A stretch of DNA of 64,000 nucleotides from NCBI RefSeq assembly GCF_008727865.1, contig NZ_VTWU01000001.1:248001-312000 (forward strand), written 5' to 3'. Under the pieces are notes generated by a model. That model did not search any database. It had not been told where the DNA came from and was given only the letters and a program-made list of their open reading frames with translations. Each line of letters begins with the position of its first letter. Position 1 is the first letter of the stretch. Positions 11,996 through 31,467 of this stretch are shown here, one piece after another. Position numbers and translations under genes: made by a program. This DNA is from Hymenobacter busanensis (GTDB taxonomy: Bacteria; Bacteroidota; Bacteroidia; Cytophagales; Hymenobacteraceae).

Positions 11996-14002
11996 TTACT
12001 GATAGTTTTTAGAAAGTAATTCACTTTCTTTTTCTGGCGGCCTAAGCCCAAACGGATTGGTCGCCCACCACTGGCCTGCTTGAATGACGGCGCCAAATGC
12101 CAAGCGAACCGGCAGCCACCGGGCGGGAATGCGCAGGCGGCGCAACTCGGGCAGTTCAAACAGCGCGTACACCTCGCGGGCGGCCTCCAGGTTCCGGGCT
12201 TGCAGGGAACGGTAGGTGCCGGCCAGCACAAACTGGTGCAGAAACCGGTCTTTCGCCCGGCGCAGGCGCGGCGCGGGCAGCAGAGCGGCTTGCTCTATTT
12301 TGCCGAAAATGCGCAGCAGCTTCCCAATGGTGTCGGCATTGAACATGGCGGCCGTAATGGCGCCGTCGTGCACCGTGTAGGCGGCCGGACAGCCCGGCAC
12401 ACACAGCACGCCGTGCATCGCAAAAATGCGGGCCCACAGGTCGGTGTCCCCGGTACTGCCTTGCTCGTGGTCAATGCAACCCGCCGCCTGGTAGGCCGCG
12501 CGGCTCACCACAATGGCCGGTATGCGCACCAACGACGAGTCGGTAAGTACCCGCTCCAGCGCCGGCAGTGGCGGGAGGTACTGCTCGCGGGCGGTGGTTT
12601 GTTTGCGCAGCGTCCGGCGCTGCATATCCACCAGTTCTACCCCAAACAGCACGGTGGCGTGCGTATGCCGCACCCTGCGCAGGGTTTGCAGCATCTCGGC
12701 AAGGCCACCGGGCCGCAAGAAATCGTCGTCGTGCAGGTGCAGCACGTAATGGCCCCGGGCGCGGCGCAGGCAGTCGTTGAAGTTGGTTGCGGCGGTGCTC
12801 CCCGGCGGGTTATGGAAGTAGCGCCACTGATTTGCGGGCTGCGACGACAGCACGTAGCGGGTAATGTATTCGCAGAGGTTGTTGCGCGTGGAGTTGTCCG
12901 ATACCACTATCTCCACATCGGGCGGCAGCGGTCCGATGGAGCGCAGGGCCCGGGCCAGCAGTTCGGGCCGGTGGTAGCAGGGCACGCAAATGCTGAGCAA
13001 CGGATGCTGCGGTGCACCACCAGCCACCGCGGGAGGCGCCCAGCCGCGGGCTGCCCGGGCCTGCACTTGCCGGCGGCTGGCCCACACGTGGCGCCAGTTT
13101 CGCTTGATGTAGGCATAGGCCTGCAACGAGCGGCGCTCCAGCAGCAGCACAAACAGCAGAATGGCAAACTGACGCGGAAAAGCACGCAGCCATTGCCCTG
13201 GCAGTTGCGCCGATGTGGGGTTCTTCAGCAGCAGCAATAGCTGATTTTTCACGGCATCGGCTTTCATGGCGCCGCTCAGCCGCAGCCGCAGCCGCACATC
13301 GGCGGGCAGAAAGTGGCGCGGGTGCAGGGCGCGGCATTGGGTAGCCAGTACCGTGCGCCAGCCATACAGGCGGCTGCGCCACGAAATGTCCCAGTCTTCC
13401 TTGTGAGCAAAAAAACGTTCGTCAAAAAACGCCCCTTCCACCCGCAGGTCGTCAATAAACCGGCGGCGGTAAAGAGGCAGGGCCCCGTCGGCCCCGTCCA
13501 CATCTTCTACCTCGGCGGCGAGGGCCACGCTGCTCAGCGGCTGGCCGTGGTAGCGCAGGCGGAAGCGGCTGTCGGGCAAAGCCACCAGCCCCGCCGAGTC
13601 GATGGTGGGGTCGGTACCGGTGGATTGCAGCAACACCCCGCACACCGTCCCAATCCGCTCGTCGGAGTGCAGCACGGCCAGGGCGGTGGCGAGGTAGTCG
13701 GGGGGCAGTACCACGTCGGGGTTCACCAGCAGCACCGCGTCGGTATGGGTGCGGTCGAGGGCATAGTTGTGGCCGCCGCAAAAGCCCGTGTTCTGGGGAA
13801 GGCGGTGCAGGTGCAGGCGGGCATCGGTAGCAGCAATAGCAGCCACGCGGGCGCAGGTGTCGTCGGTCGAGGCGTTGTCGACGACCCACACCGTGATGTT
13901 GGGGTGGGTTTGGGCCAGCGCCGATTGCAGGCAGGCCGCAATAGTTTCCGCGCTGTTCCAGGTGACGATGGAGAGCAACACGGAGGGCTCAGAAGCAGGC
14001 AT
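11996..14002 (-). CDS. Double glycosyltransferase: two GT2 domains in one chain
   Basis: A protein of 668 residues containing two complete GT-A folds. The first starts at LLSIVTWNSAETI (about residue 9), with VVDNASTDDT and the metal-binding region VNPDVVLPPD. It ends in a rhamnosyltransferase-like segment (DWDISWRSRLYGWRT) and a basic helical stretch around 290-320. The second starts near residue 330 (LLSICVPCYHRPELL), with VVSDNSTRN and LHDDDFLRPG as its DxD motif. The role is to add two sugars, or to act twice, on a lipid-linked oligosaccharide at the cytoplasmic face of the membrane. It belongs to the leftward sugar operon, 64 bp before the SAF oxidoreductase gene. Fused GT2 pairs are known from polymerising enzymes, but no membrane segments for secretion are seen here. 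Confidence 0.9.
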   Translation of the reverse strand: MPASEPSVLLSIVTWNSAETIAACLQSALAQTHPNITVWVVDNASTDDTCARVAAIAATDARLHLHRLPQNTGFCGGHNYALDRTHTDAVLLVNPDVVLPPDYLATALAVLHSDERIGTVCGVLLQSTGTDPTIDSAGLVALPDSRFRLRYHGQPLSSVALAAEVEDVDGADGALPLYRRRFIDDLRVEGAFFDERFFAHKEDWDISWRSRLYGWRTVLATQCRALHPRHFLPADVRLRLRLSGAMKADAVKNQLLLLLKNPTSAQLPGQWLRAFPRQFAILLFVLLLERRSLQAYAYIKRNWRHVWASRRQVQARAARGWAPPAVAGGAPQHPLLSICVPCYHRPELLARALRSIGPLPPDVEIVVSDNSTRNNLCEYITRYVLSSQPANQWRYFHNPPGSTAATNFNDCLRRARGHYVLHLHDDDFLRPGGLAEMLQTLRRVRHTHATVLFGVELVDMQRRTLRKQTTAREQYLPPLPALERVLTDSSLVRIPAIVVSRAAYQAAGCIDHEQGSTGDTDLWARIFAMHGVLCVPGCPAAYTVHDGAITAAMFNADTIGKLLRIFGKIEQAALLPAPRLRRAKDRFLHQFVLAGTYRSLQARNLEAAREVYALFELPELRRLRIPARWLPVRLAFGAVIQAGQWWATNPFGLRPPEKESELLSKNYQ

Positions 14003-14055: not shown

Positions 14056-15300
14056 CTAGTTGGTAGCGTAAACAGGGCGAAGCTGCATCGCCTCCAGGTG
14101 GTTCCGAAGGGCATCCAAGTCCACGGTTAGGTTTTCGCGGCGGGCGTCGCCAAGGTTGGTCGAGGGCGCCGGGTTGCGGCACACCTGCCACCGGTAGCAG
14201 ATGCCCAGCCGCGACGACATTTCCAGGAAGTCGGGCACGACGAAGCCCTGCGGAAACAACTCCAGTAGGGGAGTGCCCGGCCGGCTGAATACGATGTTGG
14301 TAAGGCCAGCCCCTACGGTTGATACCACCGCTTTGGCCCCCGCAAACAAGGCCACTTTTTCGGCAAAGCTGTAGGGGCTTAGCGCGTACGTCTGGAAACC
14401 ATACGTGTGCAGCAGGGCTTCCACCGCCGGCTCGTTGAGCACGCGGCGGGCATCGGCATCTTGCCGGCTGATGTAGATGTAAGGGCTGAATTGCCGGGCC
14501 TGCACCACTGCCGCATCGGGTGGAAGGTAGCCCGTTTGCAGAAAGCGGCAGGCCCAGTCGGGGGTGTGGGCGCCGGTGCCGCGCACCGGCGAAGTCACCA
14601 GCAGCCGCTCGGCTTGCCAGTGGCGGTGGGTGGCCACGTCGATGAGCTGTTCGGGCCGAATGCCCAGCGCGGCCAAGGATTCCTGCACGAAGCGCAATTC
14701 CCGGTTGTAGACCAGGAAATAATCGACGTCGCGCAGCAGCCCGGCTTCCTGCAGCAAGTGCAGCCGCGGTACCGAGTCGATGAGCCAGTGGTAGTAGTTG
14801 CCGATGGCCGCACCGCCCCCCGCCAACAAGCTGCACACCGTGCCGGGCACCTGCACAGGGGCCTGAAAGTATGCCTGCTGAAAGATGTTGTTGTCTTCGG
14901 GCCGAATGGTGTCCCAGGTCTTGTTGGTGTACTGAAACGACGCGTCGCCGACCAGCTTGTTGTCGGCCGCTATAACCGCTACGCTGTCGTTGTTGTCGGC
15001 GTACACGCGGCCTTGGCGCAACTCCAGCACAAAGGCCGCCGGCACCAGTTCCTGCCGCTTGGGCTTGCTGTGCAGGCTGCCCCCGTAAGCCGAAGCAGCC
15101 TGGTAAAACGCTTCCGGGATGTTCAGTTGGGAGACATACGCCGGCACCACCTCGTGGTAGGTGGCGCCGCTGCCGGGCAGCGTGGCGAGCTGGCGGCTGC
15201 TTAAATGCACGCCCACAGGGCGGTAGTGCAGGTTATGGGGTACCAGTTCGCGCAAAATGCGCCCGGCCCGGCGCTGGGCGCGGTTCAGGACTGCGTGCAT
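14056..15300 (-). CDS. GT61 (DUF563) family glycosyltransferase
   Basis: A protein of 414 residues. GNYYHWLIDSVPRLHLL is the DUF563 signature block. YIYISRQDADARRVLNE and the late STVGAGLTNIVF / LLELFPQGFV blocks are those of GT61 enzymes. Bacterial members are presumed to transfer pentoses or other sugars to glycans, but few are characterised. ATG 15300 (MHAVLNRAQRRAG) is preferred to the far upstream start at 15396, which would place AT-rich promoter-like DNA inside the gene. It is the first gene of a five-gene leftward operon ending at 8168. A second GT61 gene occurs at 33209. The leader carries CTCCTCCACC. Confidence 0.85.
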   Translation of the reverse strand: MHAVLNRAQRRAGRILRELVPHNLHYRPVGVHLSSRQLATLPGSGATYHEVVPAYVSQLNIPEAFYQAASAYGGSLHSKPKRQELVPAAFVLELRQGRVYADNNDSVAVIAADNKLVGDASFQYTNKTWDTIRPEDNNIFQQAYFQAPVQVPGTVCSLLAGGGAAIGNYYHWLIDSVPRLHLLQEAGLLRDVDYFLVYNRELRFVQESLAALGIRPEQLIDVATHRHWQAERLLVTSPVRGTGAHTPDWACRFLQTGYLPPDAAVVQARQFSPYIYISRQDADARRVLNEPAVEALLHTYGFQTYALSPYSFAEKVALFAGAKAVVSTVGAGLTNIVFSRPGTPLLELFPQGFVVPDFLEMSSRLGICYRWQVCRNPAPSTNLGDARRENLTVDLDALRNHLEAMQLRPVYATN

Positions 15301-15448
15301 GGCAATAAGGTGAAGGTGGAGGAGGCTGTAGAATGTTCTGGGTAGAACTTTCTGAGCAAATAATTGTATTAATAATGGCAAAAACAATAGATGCAAAGGT
15401 TAATTTTAAATAAAATATATTAAAAGTGCAAATATGCTTGAGTGCACA
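15301..15448 (-). promoter_or_regulatory. AT-rich promoter region of the leftward GT61-to-dehydrogenase operon
   Basis: This 148-bp gap is strikingly AT-rich against a GC-rich background and lies between the terminator of the beta-helix gene and the first gene of the operon. On the minus strand it contains AT-rich tracts and near matches to TAnnTTTG (for example CATATTTG near 15431), but no single convincing -33/-7 pair. The position and composition support a promoter; the exact start point is not resolved. Confidence 0.45.
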
Positions 15449-15482
15449 CAAAAAAGCCCGGCCGCTTGCGCGACCGGGCTTC
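15449..15482 (-). terminator. Rho-independent terminator of the 1110-residue beta-helix gene
   Basis: On the minus strand AGCCCGG (15480-15474) pairs with CCGGGCT (15461-15455) around a GC-rich loop and is followed by a run of T residues. It lies 36 bp after the stop codon of the T9SS beta-helix gene. Confidence 0.85.
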
Positions 15483-15517: not shown

Positions 15518-18500
15518 TTACTTCCGCAACTGGAGGGATTCGCCGGTGAGGGAGCCCGACAATACTTTCAGCACGTAGTTGCCAGCAGGCAAAGCGCTTA
15601 CATTCATGGTCGAGGTGCTCGTGCCCGCCGTGGCGGCTACCGTGCTACGCTTTACTTCGGTGCCCATGCTGTTGAAGAGGCCCAGCGTTACGCTCTCGGC
15701 TTTGGCCAGGTTCAGCGTCACGTTCAGGGTGTTCACGAAGGGGTTCGGGTAAGCTTGCAGGGCCGGGGCCGAGGTAGCCGTCGTCGACAGGGCAGTGCGG
15801 GCCGAGGTCGACGAAGTCGTTACCTTGTACACTTCCACACCCGAGAGGTTCATGGCACCGCCGCTGCTCTGCAGGGCAATCGTGCCGTTGGTTACCGTGG
15901 TGGTGAAAGGACCAAACTTCTTCCAGGTACCGGCGCGGCCGCTATTGTAGTTGCTCACCACGCTCTGGCCGTTCAGGCTCACGCTGTACGTCTCGGGGTT
16001 GTTGTCTTCCCAGGCGTAGAACGAAACTTCGTAGGTGCCATTCGGTACGCTCGTGAGCGAGTACTGCAGGTTGTGGCGCCAGATGAAGGACTGAATCATC
16101 GACGTGCGGTTGGCATCGGTGGCCGGTACCAGCGTCACGTTCTGCGAGGTCAGGCGGCTGCCGTTGGTCGTTACGTTGGCAGGCGAGGTGCCGGCTTCGT
16201 ACACCACCCCGTCGATGGTGGTCGAAGCACCGTTCACGTTAATGGCGCGGTACAGCGTGCGGGTCGTGGTGGGAGTCGTCGGCGTGGTCGGCGTCGTAGT
16301 GGTGCCAGCGCGGTAGATTTCGATACCCGACAGGTTGGGGTGGCCACCCGAAGTCGACAGGGCAATGGTGCCGTTGCTAACCGTTACCTGGTAAGGACCC
16401 ACCCGCTGCCAGCTGCCAGCCGCGCCGGTGTTCACGTTCGACTGCACCGTCGCGCCGTTGAGCACGATGTTGGTCGTTTCCGGGCCGTTGTCTTCCCAGA
16501 GGTAAGCGTACACCGAGTAGGTGCCAGCCGGAACGCCCGAGAGCGAAGCACCGACCGTGCTGCCACCCACCGCGTCGGTGAGCATGCTGGAGCGGTTGGC
16601 ATCCGTGGCGGGGTTCAGCGTGGTGGTGCGGTTGTCGAACACCATGCCGGTCAGCGTCACGCCGGTAGCGGTACCGGCCTCCCAGCTGTTGCCGTCGATG
16701 GTCAGGGCCGAGCCGCCCACGTTGATGCCGCGGTAGAACGTGCCGCTGGTCGGGGTCGTGGGGGGCGTTACCACCACGGCCTGCACCGTTACGTTCACAG
16801 CAGCCGACGACGTCGTGGCACCGGTGTTGTCGGTGGCTTTGGCCGTCAGGCTCAGGCTACCGGCAGCATTGGGCGTGTAGCTCAGCGAGTACGGAGCCGA
16901 GGTGTCTTCGCCCAGCTTGGTGGTGCCGTTGAAGAACTCCACTTTGGCAACCGTGCCGTCGGCGTCAGCGGCCGTAGCCGTCAGGTTCAGGGCCGTGCCC
17001 ACCGTTACGGTGCTGGCGCTCGGCGAAGTCAGGCTCACGGTCGGGGCCTGGTTGGCGGGGGCTGCGTTGTGCTTGTAAATCTCCACACCCGAAACGTTGG
17101 CGTAGCCGCCCGAGGTACCAAAGGTGATGTTGCCGTCGGCTACGTCCACTTGGTACGGGCCTACGCGCTTCCAGGTACCGGCCGGGCCGCTGTTGTAGCC
17201 GCTCTGCACCGTCTGGCCTTCCACCGAGATGTTGAACGTCTCGGCGCTGTTGTCTTCAAAGAGGTACAGGTACACGCTGTAGGTGCCGTTGGCCACGCTC
17301 GAAACCGTGCCGCTGGTGCTGGTGCCGTACACAAACGAGCGGATCATCTCGGCGCGGGCGGCATCGGTGTTCGTCGCCAGGGCCACGTTCTGAGCAGTCA
17401 GGGGCGCACCGTTGATCTGGAAGTTGGCCGCCGAGGCGCCGGCTTCCCAACTGTTGCCGTCAATCGAGGAGGCCGCACCGTTCACGTTGATGCCGCGGAA
17501 GAAGGTCGAGTTGGCCGGGCCGGCCATGGGCGTGGTGCCCGTGTTGCCGCTACCCGTGGTGGGCGTCGTCGGCGTGGTGGGGGTGGTGGGGGTAGTCGGC
17601 GTGGTCGGGGTAGTGCCCGAGCCCGAGCCGCCTACGCCCAGCGTGATGCCGTTTTGGGCTAATTTCTGCTGCCACAGGTCCCACTCGTTCTGCTCGGTTT
17701 GCAGCGTAATGGGGTTCGGCAAGTAGGTCGTGTTGGTGCAGGTTGCGCAAGCATCCGTGTTCACGTCGAAGCGGTCGGGGTAGGGCACGTTGCGGCCCCA
17801 GCTCACAAAACCCGACACGTTGTTATTCATCGTGTTGTTGTAGTACACGTTGCTCGGCTGCGAGTAGCCGTTCCAGATGGCCATGCCGGCGTACATGGCC
17901 GTCATGCGGGAGCCGTCCTGGAAGTAGCCCGAGGTTACTACGCGGTTGCCTTCGTAGTGAATGTCGTGGCCCGAAGCCACGTTCAGGGCCGAGCAGGTAG
18001 CTACCAGCTGGTTGTTGGTCACGTTGATGTACGAGGTGGCATTCGAAGCCGACATGGCGTCACCGTCCATCATGATGCCCGAGCCCGTGTAGTACGAAGC
18101 CGTAGCCGGGTAGGGGAAAGCCCCGTAGATGTAGTTGTCGTGCAGACGGATGGGCGAACTGGCCGTACCACCCGAGTTGTAGAAGTTGATGACGTCTTCC
18201 GGCAACGAGTTGTTCGGGTCGTTAATCACCTGGTTCCAGGCAATTTCGATGTTGCCGGTGTGATACACGCCGTTCAAGCCCAAGAAGTTGGAGTACGTGC
18301 CGCCGCCGTTGCGGAAACGGCCGTCGATGTTCTTGGCCACGTTGCGCACCACTGTCAGCGTCTGCGACGGCGAACCATCGCCGCTCCACATGTAGATGGC
18401 CATGCCCGTGGTTTGCTCGATGTAGTTGCCCTCGATGCGCACCGAGCGGCCCGAGTTGGCTTCTACAAAGCGGCCGCGGCGCAGGTTGTCCACCGTAGGG

Positions 18501-18850
18501 GTCTGGCCGTAGGCTTTGTTGTTGCGAATGACCAGCTGCACGCCGCTCCATTTCGCGTCGATGATGTCGCCGGGGCCCACCAAGGTGCAGTTCTCGATGG
18601 TAACCGGATCGGAAGTTTCAATCTTGATTACCGGCACCGTGGAGCTGGTGCTGCGGTAGTTGCCCGTGTAGGTACCACCGCGGGTGATGACCAGGGGGCC
18701 GGAATAATTGAGTGCGGGGACGGTCTGAGCCCACAATTTGGTCGGGAGAAGACCAATTACCAACAGCACGAGCGCCACCAACGGCAGAAAGCGTGCACCA
18801 GAGGACATGTTACGGGTGGTCCGAACGGAGGTACCAGAGGTTTTTTGCAT
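15518..18850 (-). CDS. Secreted parallel beta-helix / triple malectin-like protein with T9SS sorting domain
   Basis: 1110 residues. A signal peptide ends near residue 42 (KLWAQ). A right-handed beta-helix (about 45-405) follows, with repeated N-rich turns and a terminal CATCTN motif. A Pro-Thr-Thr repeat linker (about 412-432) leads to malectin-like module 1 (448-593), an Ig-like bacterial domain (600-693), malectin-like module 2 (702-847), a short PTT linker and module 3 (863-1008). The final 80 residues (AYPNPFVNTLNV to LQLRK) are a type A sorting domain for type IX secretion. The modules all begin with YRxINVxG-type motifs and are clearly internal duplicates. Beta-helix proteins in EPS loci are often lyases, hydrolases or epimerases; malectin-like domains bind glycans. 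The likely role is binding or processing EPS at the cell surface. Its helix domain is a paralogue of the protein at 19488. Confidence 0.88.
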   Translation of the reverse strand: MQKTSGTSVRTTRNMSSGARFLPLVALVLLVIGLLPTKLWAQTVPALNYSGPLVITRGGTYTGNYRSTSSTVPVIKIETSDPVTIENCTLVGPGDIIDAKWSGVQLVIRNNKAYGQTPTVDNLRRGRFVEANSGRSVRIEGNYIEQTTGMAIYMWSGDGSPSQTLTVVRNVAKNIDGRFRNGGGTYSNFLGLNGVYHTGNIEIAWNQVINDPNNSLPEDVINFYNSGGTASSPIRLHDNYIYGAFPYPATASYYTGSGIMMDGDAMSASNATSYINVTNNQLVATCSALNVASGHDIHYEGNRVVTSGYFQDGSRMTAMYAGMAIWNGYSQPSNVYYNNTMNNNVSGFVSWGRNVPYPDRFDVNTDACATCTNTTYLPNPITLQTEQNEWDLWQQKLAQNGITLGVGGSGSGTTPTTPTTPTTPTTPTTPTTGSGNTGTTPMAGPANSTFFRGINVNGAASSIDGNSWEAGASAANFQINGAPLTAQNVALATNTDAARAEMIRSFVYGTSTSGTVSSVANGTYSVYLYLFEDNSAETFNISVEGQTVQSGYNSGPAGTWKRVGPYQVDVADGNITFGTSGGYANVSGVEIYKHNAAPANQAPTVSLTSPSASTVTVGTALNLTATAADADGTVAKVEFFNGTTKLGEDTSAPYSLSYTPNAAGSLSLTAKATDNTGATTSSAAVNVTVQAVVVTPPTTPTSGTFYRGINVGGSALTIDGNSWEAGTATGVTLTGMVFDNRTTTLNPATDANRSSMLTDAVGGSTVGASLSGVPAGTYSVYAYLWEDNGPETTNIVLNGATVQSNVNTGAAGSWQRVGPYQVTVSNGTIALSTSGGHPNLSGIEIYRAGTTTTPTTPTTPTTTRTLYRAINVNGASTTIDGVVYEAGTSPANVTTNGSRLTSQNVTLVPATDANRTSMIQSFIWRHNLQYSLTSVPNGTYEVSFYAWEDNNPETYSVSLNGQSVVSNYNSGRAGTWKKFGPFTTTVTNGTIALQSSGGAMNLSGVEVYKVTTSSTSARTALSTTATSAPALQAYPNPFVNTLNVTLNLAKAESVTLGLFNSMGTEVKRSTVAATAGTSTSTMNVSALPAGNYVLKVLSGSLTGESLQLRK
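17557..17615 (-). repeat. Pro-Thr-Thr coding tandem repeat (9-bp unit)
   Basis: About six imperfect copies of a 9-base unit encode PTT repeats that link the beta-helix to the malectin modules. A shorter copy lies near 16260-16300 before the third module. Such low-complexity linkers are flexible and prone to copy-number change, and in Bacteroidota they may be O-glycosylated. Confidence 0.8.
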
Positions 18851-18869
18851 TCTGTTTGTATTATGTTAT

Positions 18870-18885
18870 ATGCCTATATAGGCAT
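18870..18885. promoter_or_regulatory. Perfect 16-bp palindrome just upstream of the beta-helix gene start
   Basis: ATGCCTATATAGGCAT is its own reverse complement and ends 20 bases before the start codon at 18850. It could be a dimeric repressor site or an RNA hairpin near the ribosome entry site. No other copy was noticed in the window. Confidence 0.5.
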
Positions 18886-19281
18886 GTTACGGCTTTAACC
18901 TGCCGGTAGGTCAATTCGTTCCAAACGGTGGAATGAATTATGTGCAATTGTATGAAAGGTTGCTCTTCCGCTCTGTTTCTCCTGATTCGACCTGTGCCGG
19001 CAAGGGCTGGGCGCTTGGTTCTTCCGGCTTCACCCCCGGGTAGGTGAAGCGGCTGCCAAAGCCATAGTTGCTGAAAAAGGTGTTTAAAAGGCTAAAAAGA
19101 GGGATTGTAAACCAACTTCACATGCCAACATCACCAAGAAAGCGGCCAATTAAGGGGCTTTCCTTCGTCTCTCCTTTGGGTACAATTGCCAACCCGTCGT
19201 GGGGCGCGGCAAAGGCCTTTTTGGAAACTAAGCCAAGATTGAACATTGGTATTGTTCTAGTTCTTGGGCCGGGGTTCATTA

Positions 19282-19310
19282 CAAATGTATAAAAAGGATT
19301 CGTATTGCAA
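19282..19310 (-). promoter_or_regulatory. Bacteroidota-type promoter (TTG-N18-TACATTTG)
   Basis: On the minus strand TTG (19310-19308) is followed after 18 bases by TACATTTG (19289-19282), an exact match to the TAnnTTTG -7 element of Bacteroidota sigma factors. It is the only exact -7 match between the upstream terminator and the beta-helix gene, so it most likely drives that gene. Confidence 0.6.
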
Positions 19311-19432
19311 GACCCGGCAAATATTTTTTATATGGTACTTAAACAAGATTGTAATTATACATAGCGGATTATATATGTAATTGATAGTGAATAGGGCGCC
19401 TTTAGGGCGTTCATGTTTTTTTCAAAGGGCAT

Positions 19433-19460
19433 AAAAAAAACACCTCTGGAAGGAAGGTGT
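19433..19460 (-). terminator. Terminator of the Wza-to-beta-helix EPS operon
   Basis: On the minus strand ACACCT (19460-19455) pairs with AGGTGT (19445-19440), followed directly by a run of T residues. It lies 27 bp after the stop of the 401-residue beta-helix gene and closes the main EPS operon. Confidence 0.8.
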
Positions 19461-19487
19461 CAGATACATCCTAGGCGAAGGCCGCTG

Positions 19488-20693
19488 CTACAGCTTCTGC
19501 GGGGCCGGTTTGGGGGCAAGTGCCACGCGCGGGCCTATGGAGGCACGTTGGGCCTGTAACTTGTGCTGCCACAGGTCCCACTCGTGCTGCTCGGTTTGCA
19601 GCGTGATAGGGTTGGGCAGGTGCTCGGTATTGGTACAGGGCGTGCAGGCCTCCACATTCACGTCGTGCCGGTTGGCAAACGGATGCTGCATGCCTTCTTT
19701 ATAGAAAGCAATGGTGTTGTGGTCGAAGCGGTTGCTGTGAAATACCTCCTTTGGCTTCTCGTAGGCGTTCCAGATGGCTATGGCGGCATAGCCCGTTTTC
19801 AGGCGGGTGCCGTCGGGCAGCAGGCCGCTGGATACAATGCGGTTGTCGTGGAAGGAGTTGTCGTGGCCGGCGGCAATGTTCATGGCCGCACAGGTGGCCA
19901 CTAGTTGGTTGTGGTAGGCTTCTATATAAGCCGTCGTCGTCAGGGCCGAGTCGCCGTCGCCGTCGGTAGTTACGCCCGAGCCGGTGTAGCTGGCATCGGT
20001 AGCAGGATAGGGAAATGCCCCGTAGATGTAGTTGTCGTGCACGCGCAAGGGGCTGTAGGCCGTGCCCGAGGAGTTGTAGAAGTTGATGTTGTCCTCAACG
20101 CGGGAGTTGTTGGGCTCGTTTATTACCTGATTCCAGGCTATTTCGGCATTCACCAGCCCGCGCACCCCGTTCAGGCCAATGAAAGTGGCAAATGTGCCGC
20201 CGCCGTTGCGGAAGCGGCCATCGGCGTTGCGCACCACGTTGCGCAGCACCGTGAGGGTTTGCTGGGCCGAGCCGTCGCCGCCCCAGAGGTAAATGAGGAT
20301 GCCGCTGGTGTGGCTGAACTCGTTGTTTTCGATGCGCACCGAGCGGGCCGAATTCACCTCCAGAAATCGTCCGTGGGGCTTGTTGTCGACGCTGGGCAGC
20401 AAGCCCACGCCCGTGCAGTCGCGAATAATTAGCTGCGCCCCGCCGTTGGTGGCCTCGATAAGCGTGCCGGCCCCTTCGAGCTGGCATCCTTGCAGGGTAA
20501 CTGGCTCCGTAGTATCAATGCGGATGCAGGGAACAGCCGAGTTTTCGCTGCGGTAGCTGCCGGTATACACGCCGCCGTGCCGCACCACCAAAGTGCCGTG
20601 CTCGGCCGGGGCCGCCAGCTGCGACGCCGGAACGGCGATGCACATGCTTTCGAGGAGCAAACCAAGCCAACGCAAAGGCGACAACAGTGCCAT
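19488..20693 (-). CDS. Secreted parallel beta-helix protein, last gene of the EPS assembly operon
   Basis: 401 residues. MALLSPLRWLGLLLESM begins an N-terminal signal-like segment. The rest aligns along nearly its full length with residues 45-405 of the 1110-residue protein next door. Shared blocks are GRFRNGGGT, AWNQVIN-PNNS, HDNYIYGAFPYPAT, the CTPCTN motif and NPITLQTEQ-EWDLWQ near the end. It lacks the malectin modules and the type IX sorting domain, so it probably stays in the periplasm. Parallel beta-helix proteins in EPS operons are typically lyases, hydrolases or epimerases acting on the nascent polymer. No catalytic residues can be assigned with confidence. The longer frame begins with a TTG at 20738; the ATG at 20693 is preferred. 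It lies 113 bp after the GT11 gene in the same orientation. Confidence 0.85.
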   Translation of the reverse strand: MALLSPLRWLGLLLESMCIAVPASQLAAPAEHGTLVVRHGGVYTGSYRSENSAVPCIRIDTTEPVTLQGCQLEGAGTLIEATNGGAQLIIRDCTGVGLLPSVDNKPHGRFLEVNSARSVRIENNEFSHTSGILIYLWGGDGSAQQTLTVLRNVVRNADGRFRNGGGTFATFIGLNGVRGLVNAEIAWNQVINEPNNSRVEDNINFYNSSGTAYSPLRVHDNYIYGAFPYPATDASYTGSGVTTDGDGDSALTTTAYIEAYHNQLVATCAAMNIAAGHDNSFHDNRIVSSGLLPDGTRLKTGYAAIAIWNAYEKPKEVFHSNRFDHNTIAFYKEGMQHPFANRHDVNVEACTPCTNTEHLPNPITLQTEQHEWDLWQHKLQAQRASIGPRVALAPKPAPQKL

Positions 20694-20806: not shown

Positions 20807-21682
20807 TTACTGGTCGAGAAACACCTGAAAATCGGACAGGGCTATGGGCTGCGCGGGGCGCTGCAAATGCAGCAACGGCGCAAGACCGTAGAACGACGCC
20901 CAGGCGGAATAGGAGCTGGGCGGCCCCAGGATGTAGTCGCAGCCGGCCAGGGCGTACATGTCTTCCACAAAGTGCCCCGTTGATAATTCTATATCCAGCC
21001 CGGCAAACGCGGCCGCGCTGAGCTTTTCGTTGGAGCACAGCAGGAATTTCACCCGCTGGTGCGCGGGAAGTTGGGCCCGCAATTCGTGCAAGGCGCGGGC
21101 GTAGGTGGCGTCGTCGTAGAAGTAGGCCCCGCCGCAGTAGGTGGCGTAGTCGCCGCGGCGGATGTGCACGCCCACCACCACATCGGCTTCTGCCCGCACG
21201 CGGGCCAAGAGCTGGGCCACGGCAAGCCGGTGCGGGGCTACGGGCGCAAACAGCTGGCGCAGCAGAGGGCCGTGGTTGGCGAAGTGCCGTTTGTCGCGGA
21301 ACAGCCAACCGTGGGCCAACACCGTGTGGTGCCGGGCGGCATCGAGGTAGGCGGGCTGGTTCAGGTCGTAGTCGGTTTCGCCTTCGTCGGCCAGCAGGGT
21401 GGTGCCGCGAGGCAGCAAGCGTGCCGCCTGACGCAGCAGCCCGAAAGCGCGCGGGTGCTGCACAAGCTCAAATACCCGGTCGAGCTTGGGGCTTTTAAAG
21501 GCGTGCATGCGCACGGGCAGGCCGCCAAAGTTGCCGGTGGAGGTAGCTTCAAAAAAAGGCGCGTAGCCGTTGAAGCTGGGGTTGGCCAGCTCGTAGCCGT
21601 ATTCGGCGGCATTGGCCACGAAATGGGCAAACAAAAACAACCGGTTGCCCAACTGCCCCGTGCGTTTTATCAGAATAACCAT
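20807..21682 (-). CDS. GT11 family glycosyltransferase (alpha-1,2-fucosyltransferase-like)
   Basis: A protein of 291 residues. VHIRRGDYATYC (near 168-179) is the HxRRGD motif that binds the GDP-sugar in GT11 enzymes. The N-terminus IKRTGQLGNRLFLFAH matches the family's opening GQLGNQLF-type block, and ILGPPSSYSAWASFYG is its late conserved region. The enzyme presumably transfers fucose or a related sugar from a GDP donor onto the repeat unit at the inner membrane. No GDP-fucose genes (gmd/fcl) lie in the window, so the donor must be made elsewhere. The gene starts 6 bp after the GT2 stop codon, within the EPS operon. Confidence 0.85.
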   Translation of the reverse strand: MVILIKRTGQLGNRLFLFAHFVANAAEYGYELANPSFNGYAPFFEATSTGNFGGLPVRMHAFKSPKLDRVFELVQHPRAFGLLRQAARLLPRGTTLLADEGETDYDLNQPAYLDAARHHTVLAHGWLFRDKRHFANHGPLLRQLFAPVAPHRLAVAQLLARVRAEADVVVGVHIRRGDYATYCGGAYFYDDATYARALHELRAQLPAHQRVKFLLCSNEKLSAAAFAGLDIELSTGHFVEDMYALAGCDYILGPPSSYSAWASFYGLAPLLHLQRPAQPIALSDFQVFLDQ

Positions 21683-21688
21683 AGCGCA

Positions 21689-22528
21689 TCAGTGCAGAAA
21701 GTACCCCACCATGCGGCGGGCGTAGCCGTTGAGCAAAAACAGCGGCACGAGCGGCGCCGGGCAATTCTTGAGGGCGAAGTGGGTGAAGTTGCGCAGGTTG
21801 CCGCCGCCCCGGATGCCAAACAAATGCTCGTAGTAGCCGCGCAGGCTGCGGCGGCGGCGGGTTTGCTCTTGCCCGCTTTCGTCGGGGTAAGTGAGCAGGC
21901 GGGCTTCGTAGTTGATGAATACCGGAAACCCGCGGCGGCGCGCGACGCTGGTGTAGTCGTAATCGGCGAGATAGTGCGGGAGCCGCTTTTCATCGAACAG
22001 GCCCACATGCGCGAGGGCCGTCGCGGGAATGAGCAGCCCTCGACCCGGCAGGTAGGTAACCGGGTGCAGTCCCCGGCGCTGCTCGGGCGGCAGCACGTGC
22101 AACAGGTGGCGGGGCCGGTGGGTCAGAAAGCTGAACTGCTCGCCCCCATACACGGGCGCGTGGGTGTCGGCGTCGAGTTCCAGCGCGCCCAGCAGGGCCC
22201 GGGGGTGCTTGGCAGCCGCTTTCAGCATTTGCTCAATAAAATCGGGGGCGGCCTGCACGTCGTTGTTCAGGGTCATCACGCGGTCGGCGCCGTGGCGCAG
22301 GGCGTGCCGGATGCCCAGGTTGACGCCCGCCGTCCAGAACAAAAAGCCGGTGCCGTGCAGCACGGTAACTTCCGGAAACTCGCGGGCCAGCGCCTCGGCC
22401 GTGCCGTCGGTCGAGCCATCGTCGACGACAACGACGCGGAAGTTGCGGTTGGTTTGGCGGCGCAACGACAGCAGGCATTCGCGGGTGAAAGCCCAGCGGT
22501 TGAATACAGGAATGACGATGTGGAGCAT
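21689..22528 (-). CDS. GT2 family glycosyltransferase
   Basis: A protein of 279 residues. LHIVIPVFNRWAFTRECL opens a GT-A fold, with VVVDDGSTDGTAEAL as the nucleotide-binding region and TLNNDVQAAPDF as the DxD-equivalent. Members of this size usually add one sugar (often rhamnose-like) to a lipid-linked repeat unit at the cytoplasmic membrane. ATG 22528 is used because the longer frame adds 30 residues without homology. It sits between a GT4 and a GT11 gene in the same operon, with a 6-bp gap to the latter. Confidence 0.88.
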   Translation of the reverse strand: MLHIVIPVFNRWAFTRECLLSLRRQTNRNFRVVVVDDGSTDGTAEALAREFPEVTVLHGTGFLFWTAGVNLGIRHALRHGADRVMTLNNDVQAAPDFIEQMLKAAAKHPRALLGALELDADTHAPVYGGEQFSFLTHRPRHLLHVLPPEQRRGLHPVTYLPGRGLLIPATALAHVGLFDEKRLPHYLADYDYTSVARRRGFPVFINYEARLLTYPDESGQEQTRRRRSLRGYYEHLFGIRGGGNLRNFTHFALKNCPAPLVPLFLLNGYARRMVGYFLH

Positions 22529-22571
22529 AGCAGTGGCGCGTAATCGGGGAGAAGCCAGGCTCTGAGGCAGG

Positions 22572-23873
22572 TTACTGCTCAACGAGTTCGGGAACAGGTG
22601 CCGGTTCGGGGGCCGCACCGATGGTGCGCGGCGCGGGCACGTTGGGAATGCCGGCTTCGCGCATCAGGTCGAACAGCCGCTCGATGCGGTCGGGCCAGGT
22701 CTGGCGCAGAGCAAACTCGTAGCCGGCGCGGCCCATGGCTAGGCGTTCCTGCGGGTGGTCGTAGAGGTACTCCACGGCCCGAGCCAGGGCCTCCACCGTT
22801 TCGTCGGGGTTGTCGACTGGTACTTTAATGGAGGCCGTGGCGGGAATGAAGGTGCGCGCCCCTTGGTGGTTGACGGTGATGATGGGCAGGCCGGTGGCCA
22901 TGGCTTCCATGAACTGCGACGCAAACGACTCGCGCAGGCTGGTGAAGAAAAACACGTCGTGGGAATGCATCTGCACGCACACCTCGCTCCACGGCACGCT
23001 GCCGCGCCAGGTCACGTGGTCGGCCACGCCGTACTGGGCCAGCCAGCCCGGCACGCGCGGCGCCATGGGCCCGTCGCCGAGCACGGTGAGGTGGTAGCGC
23101 ACCCGCGGGGCCACTCGCGAAAGGGCATCGAGCACCAGCGGCAAGGCTTTGTTGGGGTAGAGGCGACCCACCCACAGCAGTTTCAGCACCGGACCGGGAT
23201 GCCGCTCGGGCAGCTTGGCGCCGTAGAATGCTTCTGGCAGGCCGGTATCCAGAAACACGCGCACGTGGCGTGCCCCCAGCCGGCGGGCCAGGTCCGCCGA
23301 TTCGTCGTTGGAAGCCAGTACCAGGGAGCAGTGCCGCAGGTGCTGGCGCAGGTTGGGGTCGAAGCGGGTGAGGACCCACGTGACGGCCGAGCGGAGCGTT
23401 TCGGTGCGAAACCAGTCGGGCACGTAGCGGCGGAAGGCAATGGGGGCTTTTTGGGCGCCGCCCACCGGCCCGTATACCAGCGGCTTGCCCAACCGCCACA
23501 GCCACGAGCCCATTTTGAGGCTGCTATAGGTGGCGTGGTGTACCACGTCGAAGTTCACCTGCTGATCGAGTTTCCGCGCCACGCGCAGCGCCATGAACTG
23601 CCACACCATGTAGTGGATGTACACCCCGAACTGCCACTGGTACAGAAACTCGAAAAAGGCCGGCACCGTCACGTAAACGAACTGCAGCCGGGCCGTGGCC
23701 GGGTCGTTGGGGCGGGCGGCCATGTACTCGTCGATGGCTTCGCGGCCCCAAGTGGTGGTGAGGCACCACACCTGCTGACCGCGCTGGGCCATTTGCCAGC
23801 CCCAGTGAAAACCAATGCCCGATTCGCCGCCGTGGGCGGGGTCGCAGGCGTAAGCGGAGAGGAGGAGTTTCAT
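22572..23873 (-). CDS. GT4 family glycosyltransferase
   Basis: A protein of 433 residues with a GT-B fold. The N-terminus LLSAYACDPAHGGESGIG is typical of a GT4 group from EPS loci. LLWVGRLYPNKALPLVLDAL starts the donor-binding half, and SLRESFASQFMEAMATGLPI is the E-x7-E retaining-enzyme motif. It would transfer a sugar with retention from a nucleotide donor. The start ATG 23873 overlaps the stop of the upstream gene by four bases (ATGA), indicating coupled translation. The last 25 residues are Pro/Glu-rich and probably disordered. CTCTCCACC ends 2 bases before the start codon. Confidence 0.9.
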   Translation of the reverse strand: MKLLLSAYACDPAHGGESGIGFHWGWQMAQRGQQVWCLTTTWGREAIDEYMAARPNDPATARLQFVYVTVPAFFEFLYQWQFGVYIHYMVWQFMALRVARKLDQQVNFDVVHHATYSSLKMGSWLWRLGKPLVYGPVGGAQKAPIAFRRYVPDWFRTETLRSAVTWVLTRFDPNLRQHLRHCSLVLASNDESADLARRLGARHVRVFLDTGLPEAFYGAKLPERHPGPVLKLLWVGRLYPNKALPLVLDALSRVAPRVRYHLTVLGDGPMAPRVPGWLAQYGVADHVTWRGSVPWSEVCVQMHSHDVFFFTSLRESFASQFMEAMATGLPIITVNHQGARTFIPATASIKVPVDNPDETVEALARAVEYLYDHPQERLAMGRAGYEFALRQTWPDRIERLFDLMREAGIPNVPAPRTIGAAPEPAPVPELVEQ

Positions 23874-24898
23874 AGGTGGAGAGGGTTGGCGTAGGAAGGT
23901 TCGCGTACCGGTGGCGTCGGTTCGGGGGCATCGTTCAGGGGAATCAGGCGGGTAAGCCACTGGCGGGCTTTGGCCTGCACCCGGCCCAGCAGAAACTCGC
24001 GGAAGCGCTGCCGGTCGCGACGCCGGTCGCAGAGCACGTAGGGCGGGTGATGCAGCGGAAACGCCAGGTCGGCGGTGGGCACGGCCGCGAAGTCGTCGGA
24101 ATCGTCGAGCGTGTGGGTGCCGTGCTCCCCGAAACCGATGTTGCTCACCAGGTTCTGGGCGGGCACAATGCACAGGCCCGAGTGGGCAGCCACGGCGAAG
24201 TGCCACTGGTAGTCCCACACATCGGGTGGTTCTGGCAGGTCGAGCACGCTTTCGATTTTGCTCAGCCGGTAGCGGGTTTCGAGGGCCGAGCTGTAGAGGC
24301 CCTGCAAGGCGCCGCGGCGTTGCAGCTCCTGGTAGCCGGTGAGGTAGAAATCGAAGTGCTGCCAGGCGCGCCGCCACGTGGCCCAGCCCCAGCTGTTTAC
24401 CTGCGTGGAGAAATAGTACGACTCGGCTTCGGCGGTTGGGGGCCGTTGGGCCTCGGCGCTGAAGTTGTTGCCGCCGATGTGCATCACGCGGGTATCGTGG
24501 CGGTAGCGGGCCAACAGCTCGGCGCAAAAACGAAAGAAGCTGGGCGCTGGCACGCAGTCGTCTTCGAGAATGATGCCCTCGGCCTCGTGTTCGAAAAACC
24601 AATCGATGGCCGTGGCCGGACCGACCCCGCAGTTGAGGTTGGTGTCGCGGTAAAGCGTGTGCAGCTCACAGGGCCAGTCCACCAGTTCGCGCACCAGCTG
24701 CCGAGTGGCCTGGCAGTTGGCGCCGTCGGTGGGGTGCTGGGGGCGGGGGCCGTCGGCGGCCACGTAGAGGCGCGTGGGCCGGGCCCGCCGCAGGGCCTGC
24801 AGCACCCGGCGGGTCGTGTCGGGGCGGTTGAAGACGAGCAGAAGTACGGGCGTAGAGAAGCCCGTGGCGCTGGGCGAAAGGGCGTCAGGCGGTAGCAT
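23870..24898 (-). CDS. Nucleotide-diphospho-sugar transferase (GT-A fold, HlpA-like)
   Basis: A protein of 342 residues. PVLLLVFNRPDTTRRVLQAL and the acidic block IILEDDCVPAPSFF resemble the family annotated as nucleotide-diphospho-sugar transferase or haemolytic-protein HlpA-like, related to GNT-I-type glycosyltransferases. NSWGWATWRRAWQHFDF is a strong family block. The likely role is adding one sugar to the repeat unit. The sugar is unknown. Start ATG 24898 lies inside the end of the upstream polymerase-like gene (14-bp overlap); a longer frame from 24970 has no support. The C-terminus overlaps the GT4 start by four bases. Confidence 0.82.
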   Translation of the reverse strand: MLPPDALSPSATGFSTPVLLLVFNRPDTTRRVLQALRRARPTRLYVAADGPRPQHPTDGANCQATRQLVRELVDWPCELHTLYRDTNLNCGVGPATAIDWFFEHEAEGIILEDDCVPAPSFFRFCAELLARYRHDTRVMHIGGNNFSAEAQRPPTAEAESYYFSTQVNSWGWATWRRAWQHFDFYLTGYQELQRRGALQGLYSSALETRYRLSKIESVLDLPEPPDVWDYQWHFAVAAHSGLCIVPAQNLVSNIGFGEHGTHTLDDSDDFAAVPTADLAFPLHHPPYVLCDRRRDRQRFREFLLGRVQAKARQWLTRLIPLNDAPEPTPPVREPSYANPLHL

Positions 24899-26177
24899 GG
24901 GCAGGGGAGCTGGCTGGAAACAGGGAAGGCTGCTGTGGGGAAGCGGGCTGGCGGAGCGCGGGCACTGCAACGGGTACCGGTGCGGCCGCCGCCAGCATCA
25001 GACCCATAAAGGCATAAACAAAGGGGGGCCAGTCGTACGACACGCCGTACATGAGGGCGCTGGCGCTATAGGCAATCAGGGCGGCGGCGGTGGCATCGAG
25101 CGGCACGGGCTGACGCAGCCGGCGCCACACCTGCACCAAGGGCGCCACCACCACCAGCACAATGCCCAGCACCCCGAAGTAGAACAGCCGGTCGATGTAA
25201 AAGCTATGGAAGTGGTGGCCGGTGCCGTCGCGCCACACGGGGGCGTCGGTATCGGTGCTGTAGAACTGCACCGGCAGCTCGAACCCCTTCAGGCGCATGC
25301 CCGCAATGATATTCTCCTCGATGAACGGCTGGTACGACTCGAACTGCTCGCGGCGCCACTTGCCGGTACCTTGCTTATCGGAGTTGCGAATGTCGTCGAT
25401 GCTGTTGCTGAGCTTCTGGAGCACGGCCGGGTTTTCGATGAACGCCGCCGTGCCGCCAACCGTCAGGGCCAGCAGCGGCATGATGAACACGGGCGTCAGC
25501 CGCTGCATATTCAGCCGTACACCCTGGGTGCGGCGCAGCAACAGCAGATTCACCAGCAGCCCCAGGCCGCCCGCCAGCCACACGCTGCGGTGCTGCAAAA
25601 AGATGACGAGGCCGTAGAGCACAAAAAACATGGCCAGGCGCAACAGCCCGCCGCGGGTGAAATACTGGTTGAGGAAGTACAGGCCCAGCAGCGGCAGCAA
25701 AAACGTGGAGTTGGAGCCAAAGCCCCGTTCGTTGTCGAGGAAGGCCGACATGCTCAGCGCTTCGGGGTGAAGCAGCAGTAGGTTCGACATCAGCCCGGCC
25801 AGAATCAGCGCCATCAGCAGGCCAAACGGCGGCAGGCCGAAGCGCCGGTGAAAGGCGTACACGGCAAACACATTGAGCAGCACCAGCAGCTTAGCAAACA
25901 CGTGCGGGTACACCATCCAGCTGCCCCAGCCGCCGTACGACTCCAGGGCCATCAGCCCGATGCTGCCCAGCACGACGAGCAGCCAGGTGCGCATTACAGA
26001 ATCGAAGTGCTTGTAATACAGTACAGTCAATCCAAAGGTCAGGCCCGTCAGGGCGTAGCTGTAGAGCCCAATCATGGGGTCACCTTCGTCGGCAAAAGCC
26101 AGCTCCGTAAAACCCCGGTCGGTGAGTACCACCGCCAGCACCACCACCACATAGCGGAAACGAAGGCTGATTTTCAT
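24885..26177 (-). CDS. O-antigen polymerase/ligase-like integral membrane protein (Wzy candidate)
   Basis: A protein of 430 residues with about ten hydrophobic segments. A large central loop (about 230-330) contains AFIENPAVLQKLSN and GKWRREQFESYQPFIEENII, in the position of the periplasmic loop of Wzy/O-antigen ligase proteins. HRSVWLAGGLGLLVNLLLL resembles the Wzy_C core. The role would be to polymerise flipped repeat units at the periplasmic face. Only one polymerase-like gene is present, matched with one flippase, one Wzc and one Wza, which fits a Wzx/Wzy pathway. ATG 26177 gives the expected membrane N-terminus. Confidence 0.82.
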   Translation of the reverse strand: MKISLRFRYVVVVLAVVLTDRGFTELAFADEGDPMIGLYSYALTGLTFGLTVLYYKHFDSVMRTWLLVVLGSIGLMALESYGGWGSWMVYPHVFAKLLVLLNVFAVYAFHRRFGLPPFGLLMALILAGLMSNLLLLHPEALSMSAFLDNERGFGSNSTFLLPLLGLYFLNQYFTRGGLLRLAMFFVLYGLVIFLQHRSVWLAGGLGLLVNLLLLRRTQGVRLNMQRLTPVFIMPLLALTVGGTAAFIENPAVLQKLSNSIDDIRNSDKQGTGKWRREQFESYQPFIEENIIAGMRLKGFELPVQFYSTDTDAPVWRDGTGHHFHSFYIDRLFYFGVLGIVLVVVAPLVQVWRRLRQPVPLDATAAALIAYSASALMYGVSYDWPPFVYAFMGLMLAAAAPVPVAVPALRQPASPQQPSLFPASSPAHATA

Positions 26178-26200
26178 GGAGATAGGGCGTGAAACGGAGG

Positions 26201-27307
26201 TTAGGCGGGTACGCGCACTTCGCGGGCTTCCTGGTACACCCGGTGGGTGAGGGCCGCGGTGCGGGCCCACGTGAAGTCATGGCCCCGCCGGTGGCCGGCT
26301 TCGCGGAGTTGCCGTTGCAGGGCGGGCTCGGCCAGCAGGCGGCCGAGCTGCTCAGCCAGGTGGGCGGGGCTGTTCGGGTTGAAATAGAGAGCGGCCTCCT
26401 GGGCTACTTCGGGGAAGCACGAGGCGTGGCTAAGCACGGCCGGGCAGCCGTGGGCAAAGGCCTCCAGAATGGGAATGCCGAAGCCTTCGTAGTGCGAGGG
26501 AAACACGAAAGCCTGGGCCTGCGCGTAGAGGTAGGCCAGCTGCGCTTCGGAAAGCGGCCCGCGCTGCACCACCCGGTCGGCAAGGCCTAGCTGCTCAAGC
26601 TGCGCGGTTTCGGCCGGACTGAAAGGCCCCCCACCAGCGCACACCACATACAGCTGAGGATGGTGCGGGCGCAGCAGGGCAAAAGCCTGCAGCAGGCAGT
26701 CGAAATTCTTGTAGAACCGCCGGGTGCCAGTGTACAGCAGGTAGTGCTCGGGCACGGCCAAACCGGTGCGGCTGGGCACGGCGGGCGACGTACCGTGCGG
26801 CACCACCACTACCTGCTCGGGCTCCACGGGCAGCAGGCGCAGCAAATCGGCACGCGTGTTTTCCGACACCGCAATGATGCGGGTGGCACGGGCGGTTTGG
26901 CGGGCCAGGCCGGCTACCGAGGCGTGGGGGTAGTACTCCGGGTAAAGCAGCGGAATCAGGTCGTGCACGGTCATCACAAACGGCCGGTCCCCAATCAGGT
27001 CCAGGAAATAATCGGCATCGTTGAGGGTGGGGTGAAACACGTCGAAGTCGCCGCGCTGCAAGGCCCGCACCGCGGCCCACTGGTTGATTTGGCCCGTGAG
27101 GCGCCAGGCTTTTTCGGCCAGCCACTGGGGCCGGATGCTGACGTGGCGGGTGTGCTGCCGGTCGTGCAGGTACAGGTTGTTGCTGAGCACGATGGGCAGC
27201 TCGCACTGCGTGCCGGACCCGGCATGGCGCAGCAACTCGCTGAAGTACCGCGTGATACCCCCGACGTCTTGCAGCGAAAAGGCGTGATGGTCGTAGAGAA
27301 TCTTCAT
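26201..27307 (-). CDS. GT4 family glycosyltransferase (mannosyltransferase-like)
   Basis: A protein of 368 residues with a GT-B fold. ILYDHHAFSLQDVGGITRYF is the typical acceptor-side opening of WbaZ-like mannosyltransferases. YTGTRRFYKNFDCLLQAF opens the donor half, and FPSHYEGFGIPILEAFAHG carries the retaining E-x7-E motif. It would add mannose or a similar sugar to the repeat unit. The start overlaps the flippase stop codon by four bases. The gene lies 23 bp before the Wzy candidate. Confidence 0.9.
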   Translation of the reverse strand: MKILYDHHAFSLQDVGGITRYFSELLRHAGSGTQCELPIVLSNNLYLHDRQHTRHVSIRPQWLAEKAWRLTGQINQWAAVRALQRGDFDVFHPTLNDADYFLDLIGDRPFVMTVHDLIPLLYPEYYPHASVAGLARQTARATRIIAVSENTRADLLRLLPVEPEQVVVVPHGTSPAVPSRTGLAVPEHYLLYTGTRRFYKNFDCLLQAFALLRPHHPQLYVVCAGGGPFSPAETAQLEQLGLADRVVQRGPLSEAQLAYLYAQAQAFVFPSHYEGFGIPILEAFAHGCPAVLSHASCFPEVAQEAALYFNPNSPAHLAEQLGRLLAEPALQRQLREAGHRRGHDFTWARTAALTHRVYQEAREVRVPA

Positions 27308-31382: not shown

Positions 31383-31467
31383 AGCGCGTGGTTCCATGCC
31401 GGGGAAGTGGTGAAATTGCGGTGGGGCCGAAAGCGGCACCCGGAGCGGTGGAAAAAGAGCAGCGGTA

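Follow-up and report, generated by a model that had tools for sequence, protein, structure and literature searches.

Two paralogous helix-domain proteins in an exopolysaccharide locus of Hymenobacter busanensis: candidate compartment forms of one depolymerase

The DNA analysed here, hereafter the window, is a stretch of 64,000 nt from Hymenobacter busanensis carrying a locus for exopolysaccharide (EPS) synthesis. A run of minus-strand genes in the order Wza-Wzc-Wzx-GT4-polymerase-like-GT4-GT2-GT11 (GT, glycosyltransferase family) ends with the gene of a 401-residue protein, here called S (19488..20693), and is followed on the same strand by the gene of a 1110-residue protein, L (15518..18850). 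S had been described as the last gene of the polymer operon in a first-pass annotation; it is indeed last in the same-strand run, and strand and gaps suggest that the run from Wza to S forms one operon. We propose that S and L are probably two compartment forms of a single EPS-specific beta-helix depolymerase.

S aligned with residues 29-405 of L with 210 identical residues out of 382 (55%, E 1e-149), and both the CxxCTN motif and the NPITLQTEQxEWDLWQ ending lie inside this alignment, which bears out the earlier proposal that S is a paralogue of the N-terminal domain of L. A search of the genome with S returned these two copies only (E up to 0.001). In L, the helix domain (residues 46-410; 17621..18715) is followed, all on the minus strand, by a malectin-like module (module 1, residues 448-593; 17072..17509), a Big_7 Ig-like domain (residues 603-670; 16841..17044), two further malectin-like modules (module 2, residues 703-847, 16310..16744; module 3, residues 864-1009, 15824..16261) and a type IX C-terminal sorting domain (residues 1034-1100; 15551..15751). 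The three malectin-like modules share 75 identical positions of 145-146 with one another (75/146 between modules 1 and 3), far over 200 shuffles. Module 3 matched Pfam Malectin (PF11721) over residues 868-970 with 25 bits for a cut-off of 23, and modules 1 and 2 are assigned through their similarity to it. The sorting tail, of type A, exceeded both cut-offs (Por_Secre_tail, 40.3 bits vs 27; TIGR04183, 32.3 vs 23). Neither Pfam (E up to 0.1) nor NCBIfam reported Big_7, malectin or sorting-tail domains in S. The domain make-up given for the two proteins by the first-pass annotation, including the missing sorting domain of S, was thus recovered.

We compared these proteins with their relatives in fetched stretches or loci (numbered L051 and so on), genomes (G007 and so on) and genera of the family (g1, g4, g6). 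Helix domains were aligned in sets A2 and A4 and L proteins in sets A3 (45 members) and A5 (34 members). S ends within 60 residues of the helix, and the modules added in L are Big, malectin, PA14, PKD or CBM_4_9. PA14 was present in 1 of the 45 A3 proteins and 28 of the 34 A5 proteins, and Big_7 in 38 and 24, respectively; Malectin was reported in 5 of the 45 A3 members, Pfam seeing the clearest modules only. Por_Secre_tail was found in 32/34 A5 proteins and in 19/45 A3 proteins, the latter a lower bound since some A3 members are frameshifted or contain runs of N, and some A3 L proteins do finish in a malectin-like module. Across lineages the helix thus stays constant, while the glycan-binding part is exchanged. 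Several L proteins with no recognisable type IX tail (L056, L057, L059, L060, L067) share a C-terminal tail of the form RPxLVA..SRQR..RL.

Across 162 helix domains, D201 and D244 of S (D219 and D262 of L) were conserved in 99.4% of sequences and H219 in 98.8%, while E368 and asparagines N152, N188, N221, N262 and N284 were present in 100%. These asparagines recur every 22-41 residues and look like a structural ladder. Among 14 distant homologues H219 and E368 vary; the position of D201 is occupied by D or E in 14/14, and that of D244 in the 12/12 with a residue there. Both acids are retained in S and L of the window and are kept in host, phage and Deinococcus copies. D201 and D244 are the best catalytic candidates on conservation in the 162 and 14 sequences, although the first-pass annotation had considered that no catalytic residues could be named. 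The domain may adopt a right-handed parallel beta-helix fold. With E values of up to 1, Pfam Beta_helix (PF13229) was reported in 33 of 68 members, the best value being 1e-5. L did not appear among the matches to this family (E up to 0.1), and neither NCBIfam nor PHROGs yielded a convincing match to the helix.

S and L lie side by side in 8/8 genomes of the window's genus, and the pair is present in two further genera. Of 204 family genomes, 121 matched the helix profile (E up to 1e-5), and these fall into three of six genera; seven of the 121 (G029, G039, G077, G086, G092, G102, G170) matched only at E 1e-12 to 3e-6. In a phylum-wide draw the helix occurred in 5 of 395 genomes, of which four belong to this family and one is the genome of the window itself. 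Scanning named genome contigs with a pattern yielded 58 loci, comprising 54 from Hymenobacter, 1 from Solirubrum and 3 from metagenome-assembled genomes labelled Oligoflexia; two of these last three copies (L097, L101) carry ricin-type lectin domains. Genus g6 holds the helix in 41/50 genomes (E up to 1e-20), and all 28 g6 stretches fetched, chosen for two copies listed close together, contain both S and L.

The first-pass annotation had proposed looking for the pair beside Wza/Wzc genes in related genomes. We fetched 93 stretches because the helix was present (58 named and 35 unnamed, L100 and L167 being the same place). EPS genes were found in 79 of them; S and L were both present in 68, L only in 19 and S only in 6, some of the single-copy stretches being cut by contig ends. 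The nearest upstream homologue of a window gene was a GT2 or GT11 gene for 70 of 73 S copies. The polymerase of the locus served as an independent marker (E up to 1e-20) and was present in 121/204 family genomes. Helix and polymerase occurred together in 119 genomes, the helix only in 2 (G118, G170), the polymerase only in 2 (G190, G203) and neither in 81; within genus g4 the corresponding numbers were 70, 1, 0 and 49. This co-occurrence refers to presence in the genome and is not proof of linkage in each one, and Fisher values computed from it overstate independence because the family genomes are related. Off-locus extra helix copies with short C-terminal tails were seen in four Hymenobacter genomes (L071, L082, L083, L098); they form two pairs of syntenic regions, with no EPS genes in the fetched stretch.

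Copies 34-37% identical were also observed in three Deinococcus plasmid records (L184, L185, L186); L185 lies in an EPS-type gene cluster, and the annotation of L186 shows a fusion with an NPCBM domain. L120 gave no match in plasmids. One of the Deinococcus copies has GH43 and GH2 genes (GH, glycoside hydrolase family) in its vicinity, a setting which would suit a nutrient enzyme, and glycan enzymes exported by the type IX secretion system commonly scavenge in Bacteroidota. L might accordingly be an enzyme for foreign glycans that sits in the EPS locus by chance. We regard this as very improbable: co-occurrence with the EPS polymerase is near-complete, and scavenging leaves unexplained the homogenisation of L with the locus-borne S that is described below.

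Homologues of the helix were further found among viruses. S had no match in 50,697 phage records, but when viral contigs were scanned, 8 loci were recovered, at 29-46% identity. PHROGs was run on 20 neighbouring proteins, 19 of them from these viral loci. Phage tail, portal or packaging genes adjoin the helix homologue in 6 of the 8: tail genes are directly upstream in L177, L182 and L183, the last with a head maturation protease downstream too, and portal, adaptor or terminase genes are nearby in L176, L178 and L180. The sole neighbour scanned in L181 was a nucleotide-sugar epimerase, and the sole one in L179 had no PHROGs match. The helix proteins of these contigs are presumably virion parts. 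In L176 (3262-6611) the helix gene follows, by about 1.3 kb with small open reading frames (ORFs) between, a gene that by eye resembles one for an amidase endolysin, and its product starts in a signal-like manner and ends in a sorting-like tail. This suggests a host-type secreted copy, possibly an EPS cutter in a phage lysis cassette. A third copy in G007, a genome of the window's genus, is 29% identical and lies about 1 kb upstream of an amidase-like ORF that is 60% identical to the L176 amidase over 136 residues; its upstream neighbour had no PHROGs match.

These homologues bear on whether the helix cuts the polymer at all. It might bind EPS without cutting it, with S as an accessory of assembly or export and L as an adhesin or a scaffold of the matrix. 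Simple binding would fit an invariant set made up mainly of asparagines and glycines, the many binding modules of L (malectin, PA14, Big) and the lack of a match to any catalytic family. On the other hand, host, phage and Deinococcus copies alike retain the two acids, and a helix protein in a phage tail block is typically a depolymerase, as is generally known of tailspikes. There is also a precedent in WceF, an active hydrolase (PMC7949094). We therefore consider binding without cleavage unlikely.

The other genes of the locus, all on the minus strand, encode a Wza-like export protein (Poly_export, SLBB; 31468..32241), a Wzc-like co-polymerase/kinase (29019..31439), a Wzx-like flippase (Polysacc_synt_3; 27304..28959), a GT4 glycosyltransferase (26201..27307), a polymerase-like protein with multiple transmembrane segments (24885..26270, start probably about 26177), a GT4-type ORF (22572..24602, true start probably further in), a GT2 (21689..22618) and a GT11-like glycosyltransferase (20807..21682; 23.1 bits, below the cut-off of 23.9). 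The polymerase-like protein had no Pfam match; its hydrophobic stretches, judged by eye, and its place in the locus suggested its role. Beyond L the same strand continues with a GT61 glycosyltransferase (14056..15396), a two-domain GT2 (11996..14002), an oxidoreductase, an epimerase and a UDP-sugar dehydrogenase. A gene named by eye as GDP-mannose 4,6-dehydratase-like follows L in Hymenobacter loci L051, L056, L059 and L062, and a weak epimerase match lies downstream of L in many others; together with GT11, these genes suggest fucose in the polymer. The downstream dehydrogenase would also be compatible with a helix that modifies the polymer, as a C5-epimerase or similar enzyme on the model of AlgG, and beta-helix epimerases do occur in export operons. 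Relatives in phage structural gene blocks would, however, gain little from an epimerase, and we give modification little credence, cleavage remaining the activity we favour.

The helix domains of S and L did not evolve as two separate lineages. Tracing the S label on a tree of 95 domains takes 10 changes, no fewer than 8 of which are forced by well-supported branches; on a quick tree of 162 domains it takes 18, with no fewer than 16 forced. Forcing S into one clade cost 600 log-likelihood units (p-AU 1.3e-64 in the approximately unbiased (AU) test, 84 of the 95 rows). The notion of S and L as two ancient clades was consequently dropped.

We compared 72 S-L pairs, that of the window included, at the nucleotide level and with a run test in which codon columns were shuffled (500 shuffles). 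The observed runs were never reached in 10 pairs (0/500), and 18 of the 72, those 10 included, scored at most 5/500. In L094, L095 and L155 about 1 kb is identical between S and L and an edge has diverged, their identity is confined to the last 320-360 nt in L063 and L072, and their similarity to about the first two thirds in L172. Core S-L identity within a genome was 1.00 in L094 and L095 and 0.98 in L163, compared to 0.93 for S-S between species, so that homogenisation in these three followed speciation. At the 3' end only, L063 and L072 gave S-L values of 0.959 and 0.90 vs 0.852 for S-S and 0.907 for L-L. In a minority of pairs this mosaic of identity tracts indicates that the helix domain has undergone gene conversion, which in three species would have taken place after they split. 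S and L could alternatively owe their likeness within genomes to many re-duplications. The interleaving of S and L labels on the trees is what repeated duplication and loss would give, the helix of L154 is identical in S and L throughout (the run test is uninformative there) and S of L155 matches the more distant of two L copies. Since partial tracts stop inside the domain (L063, L072, L172), and gene order and promoter motif are conserved, we hold re-duplication to be decidedly unlikely and gene conversion the better account.

The promoter motif in question is of the Bacteroidota type (TTG-18 nt-TACATTTG; 19282..19310, minus strand), about 430 nt before the ATG of L. It occurred in 17 of 27 S-L intergenic stretches, the window's included (block-shuffled mean 0.94, maximum 4). 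The leader of about 430 nt that it would produce (window 18851-19281) contains conserved blocks AATTGCACA and GGAACGAATTG, which are common to many relatives. It had no Rfam match at E up to 5, and no Rfam family exceeded its cut-off between 14000 and 33500, hence no known riboswitch lies in the long leader; anti-hemB, at E 0.003 and below its cut-off, overlies the end of L and its terminator. Terminator-like hairpins follow S (19439..19461) and L (15453..15482), both on the minus strand. Of the promoter and terminator that had been ascribed to L, the promoter is thus backed by its recurrence in relatives; the hairpin is present, at a frequency expected by chance, such hairpins being not commoner in that region than in shuffles (7 found, mean 6.7).

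As to where the two proteins reside, L has near its N-terminus a hydrophobic stretch ending in KLWAQ (read by eye), a possible cleavable signal peptide, and the genome encodes type IX machinery (SprA_N, 470.7 bits, SprA being the component searched for) along with 121 sorting-domain matches (E up to 0.001). The N-terminus of S in the window is hydrophobic and showed no lipobox in a pattern search. A loose lipobox-like pattern was found in 22 of 35 S copies of g4 (one of which, L099, is a cut L) vs 5 of 46 L copies of that genus, and in 3 of 7 S copies of g1, the overall L control being 5/83. None of the 28 g6 S copies has a lipobox, and these appear by eye to carry a membrane anchor instead. 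S is probably held in the envelope, and since the window's own S lacks a lipobox, the term periplasmic rests mostly on relatives. The first-pass annotation had envisaged a duplicated EPS-modifying enzyme split into periplasmic and surface forms. Locus context, phage homologues and N-termini support that idea in outline; the type IX tail is not constant in L, S of the window offers no lipobox, and S and L cannot be two old lineages given the rejected S clade and the conversion tracts of some pairs.

In the mechanism that we propose, the helix domain of both proteins would most likely cut the polymer of the surrounding Wzx/Wzy-type locus by means of the two acids. S, held in the envelope through the lipoprotein-like or anchor-like N-terminus seen in many relatives, would trim or clear polymer during polymerisation and export. 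L would be transcribed separately and leave the cell, through type IX secretion in the window, and its malectin-like modules would hold it on the polymer, where it would remodel finished EPS. Since S and L alike have to suit the polymer of their own strain, gene conversion would at times copy the helix domain between S and L while their ends stay distinct. We put forward more tentatively, as something short of probable, the wider picture of a locus that carries its depolymerase twice, in periplasm and matrix, and tunes it by conversion to a changing polymer, with phages using the same domain as tail enzymes and, in L176, as a secreted copy.

Several observations weigh against this proposal. 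Concerning fold and activity, S scored 19.7 bits with Beta_helix, below the curated cut-off of 25.9, and the broadest helix profile matched nothing in the PDB but a pectate lyase (136 positions, E 0.004). Apart from that protein and a pectin lyase at E 0.66, no enzyme matched the helix when L, S, A2, L120 and A4 were searched against the PDB, and no relatives with tested activity were found. Concerning localisation, Por_Secre_tail was not found at E 0.001 in 28 of 79 L proteins, only 10 of the 35 g4 S copies satisfied a strict lipobox pattern and some loose matches were poor. Some EPS loci hold L only (e.g. L073, L075, L077, L080, L089), and 14 of the 93 stretches lack any EPS gene searched for, although several of these represent off-locus copies or the ends of contigs. 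In most pairs no tract reached significance; besides the 18 pairs above and L154, a further 53 gave no clear conversion tract. S-S identity (0.84 and 0.925) exceeds S-L identity (0.72 and 0.74-0.76) in L143/L148 and L076/L081, and the window's own pair displays no recent conversion (amino acid identity 0.56, nucleotide identity 0.64; run test 15/500).

EPS loci with their own polymer-modifying or polymer-cutting enzyme are known, as with AlgL/AlgG, PslG and BcsZ-type enzymes, which have other folds or activities and are not known to be duplicated in the manner of S and L. By analogy, the nearest precedent is WceF of Pantoea stewartii, a stewartan hydrolase with a tailspike-like beta-helix that is encoded in the EPS cluster and whose mutants make longer polymer; its authors do not settle whether its place of action is the biofilm or the periplasm during transfer (PMC7949094). 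S and L resemble it in being encoded inside an EPS cluster and in having relatives in phage tail gene blocks, and may resemble it in a beta-helix fold. WceF as described there is a single, Tat-exported trimeric protein (PMC7949094), whereas S and L form a paralogous pair that appears to be divided between two compartments and bears marks of concerted evolution. VexL, presented in the same source as a monomeric beta-helix hydrolase of capsule biosynthesis (PMC7949094), is like the proposed S a periplasmic beta-helix cleaver of polysaccharide in a capsule pathway. No VexL chain was among the PDB matches and no WceF chain among those at E up to 10, the presence of WceF in the searched copy of the PDB being unchecked. 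We know of no secreted twin of VexL. S and L are linked to phage tailspike depolymerases by members of the helix family that lie beside the tail, portal or packaging genes of viral contigs; host copies differ from tailspikes in having signal-like N-termini and, in L, binding modules in place of virion-attachment parts. Among the titles and abstract openings listed we found no description of the S-L pair, of gene conversion with an EPS depolymerase or of Hymenobacter tailspikes. What appears new here is that S does not form one clade and that conversion tracts are present, together with the phage-block homologues and the near-universal pair of acids.

Whether the cutting enzymes of EPS loci act in export or on the finished matrix is an open question. 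The lineage carrying S and L seems to devote a separate protein to each place, both built on the same active domain, which makes this question directly addressable. If concerted evolution is true, the helix domain would be a sequence read-out of polymer change, and would tie the remodelling of host EPS to the supply of phage depolymerases.

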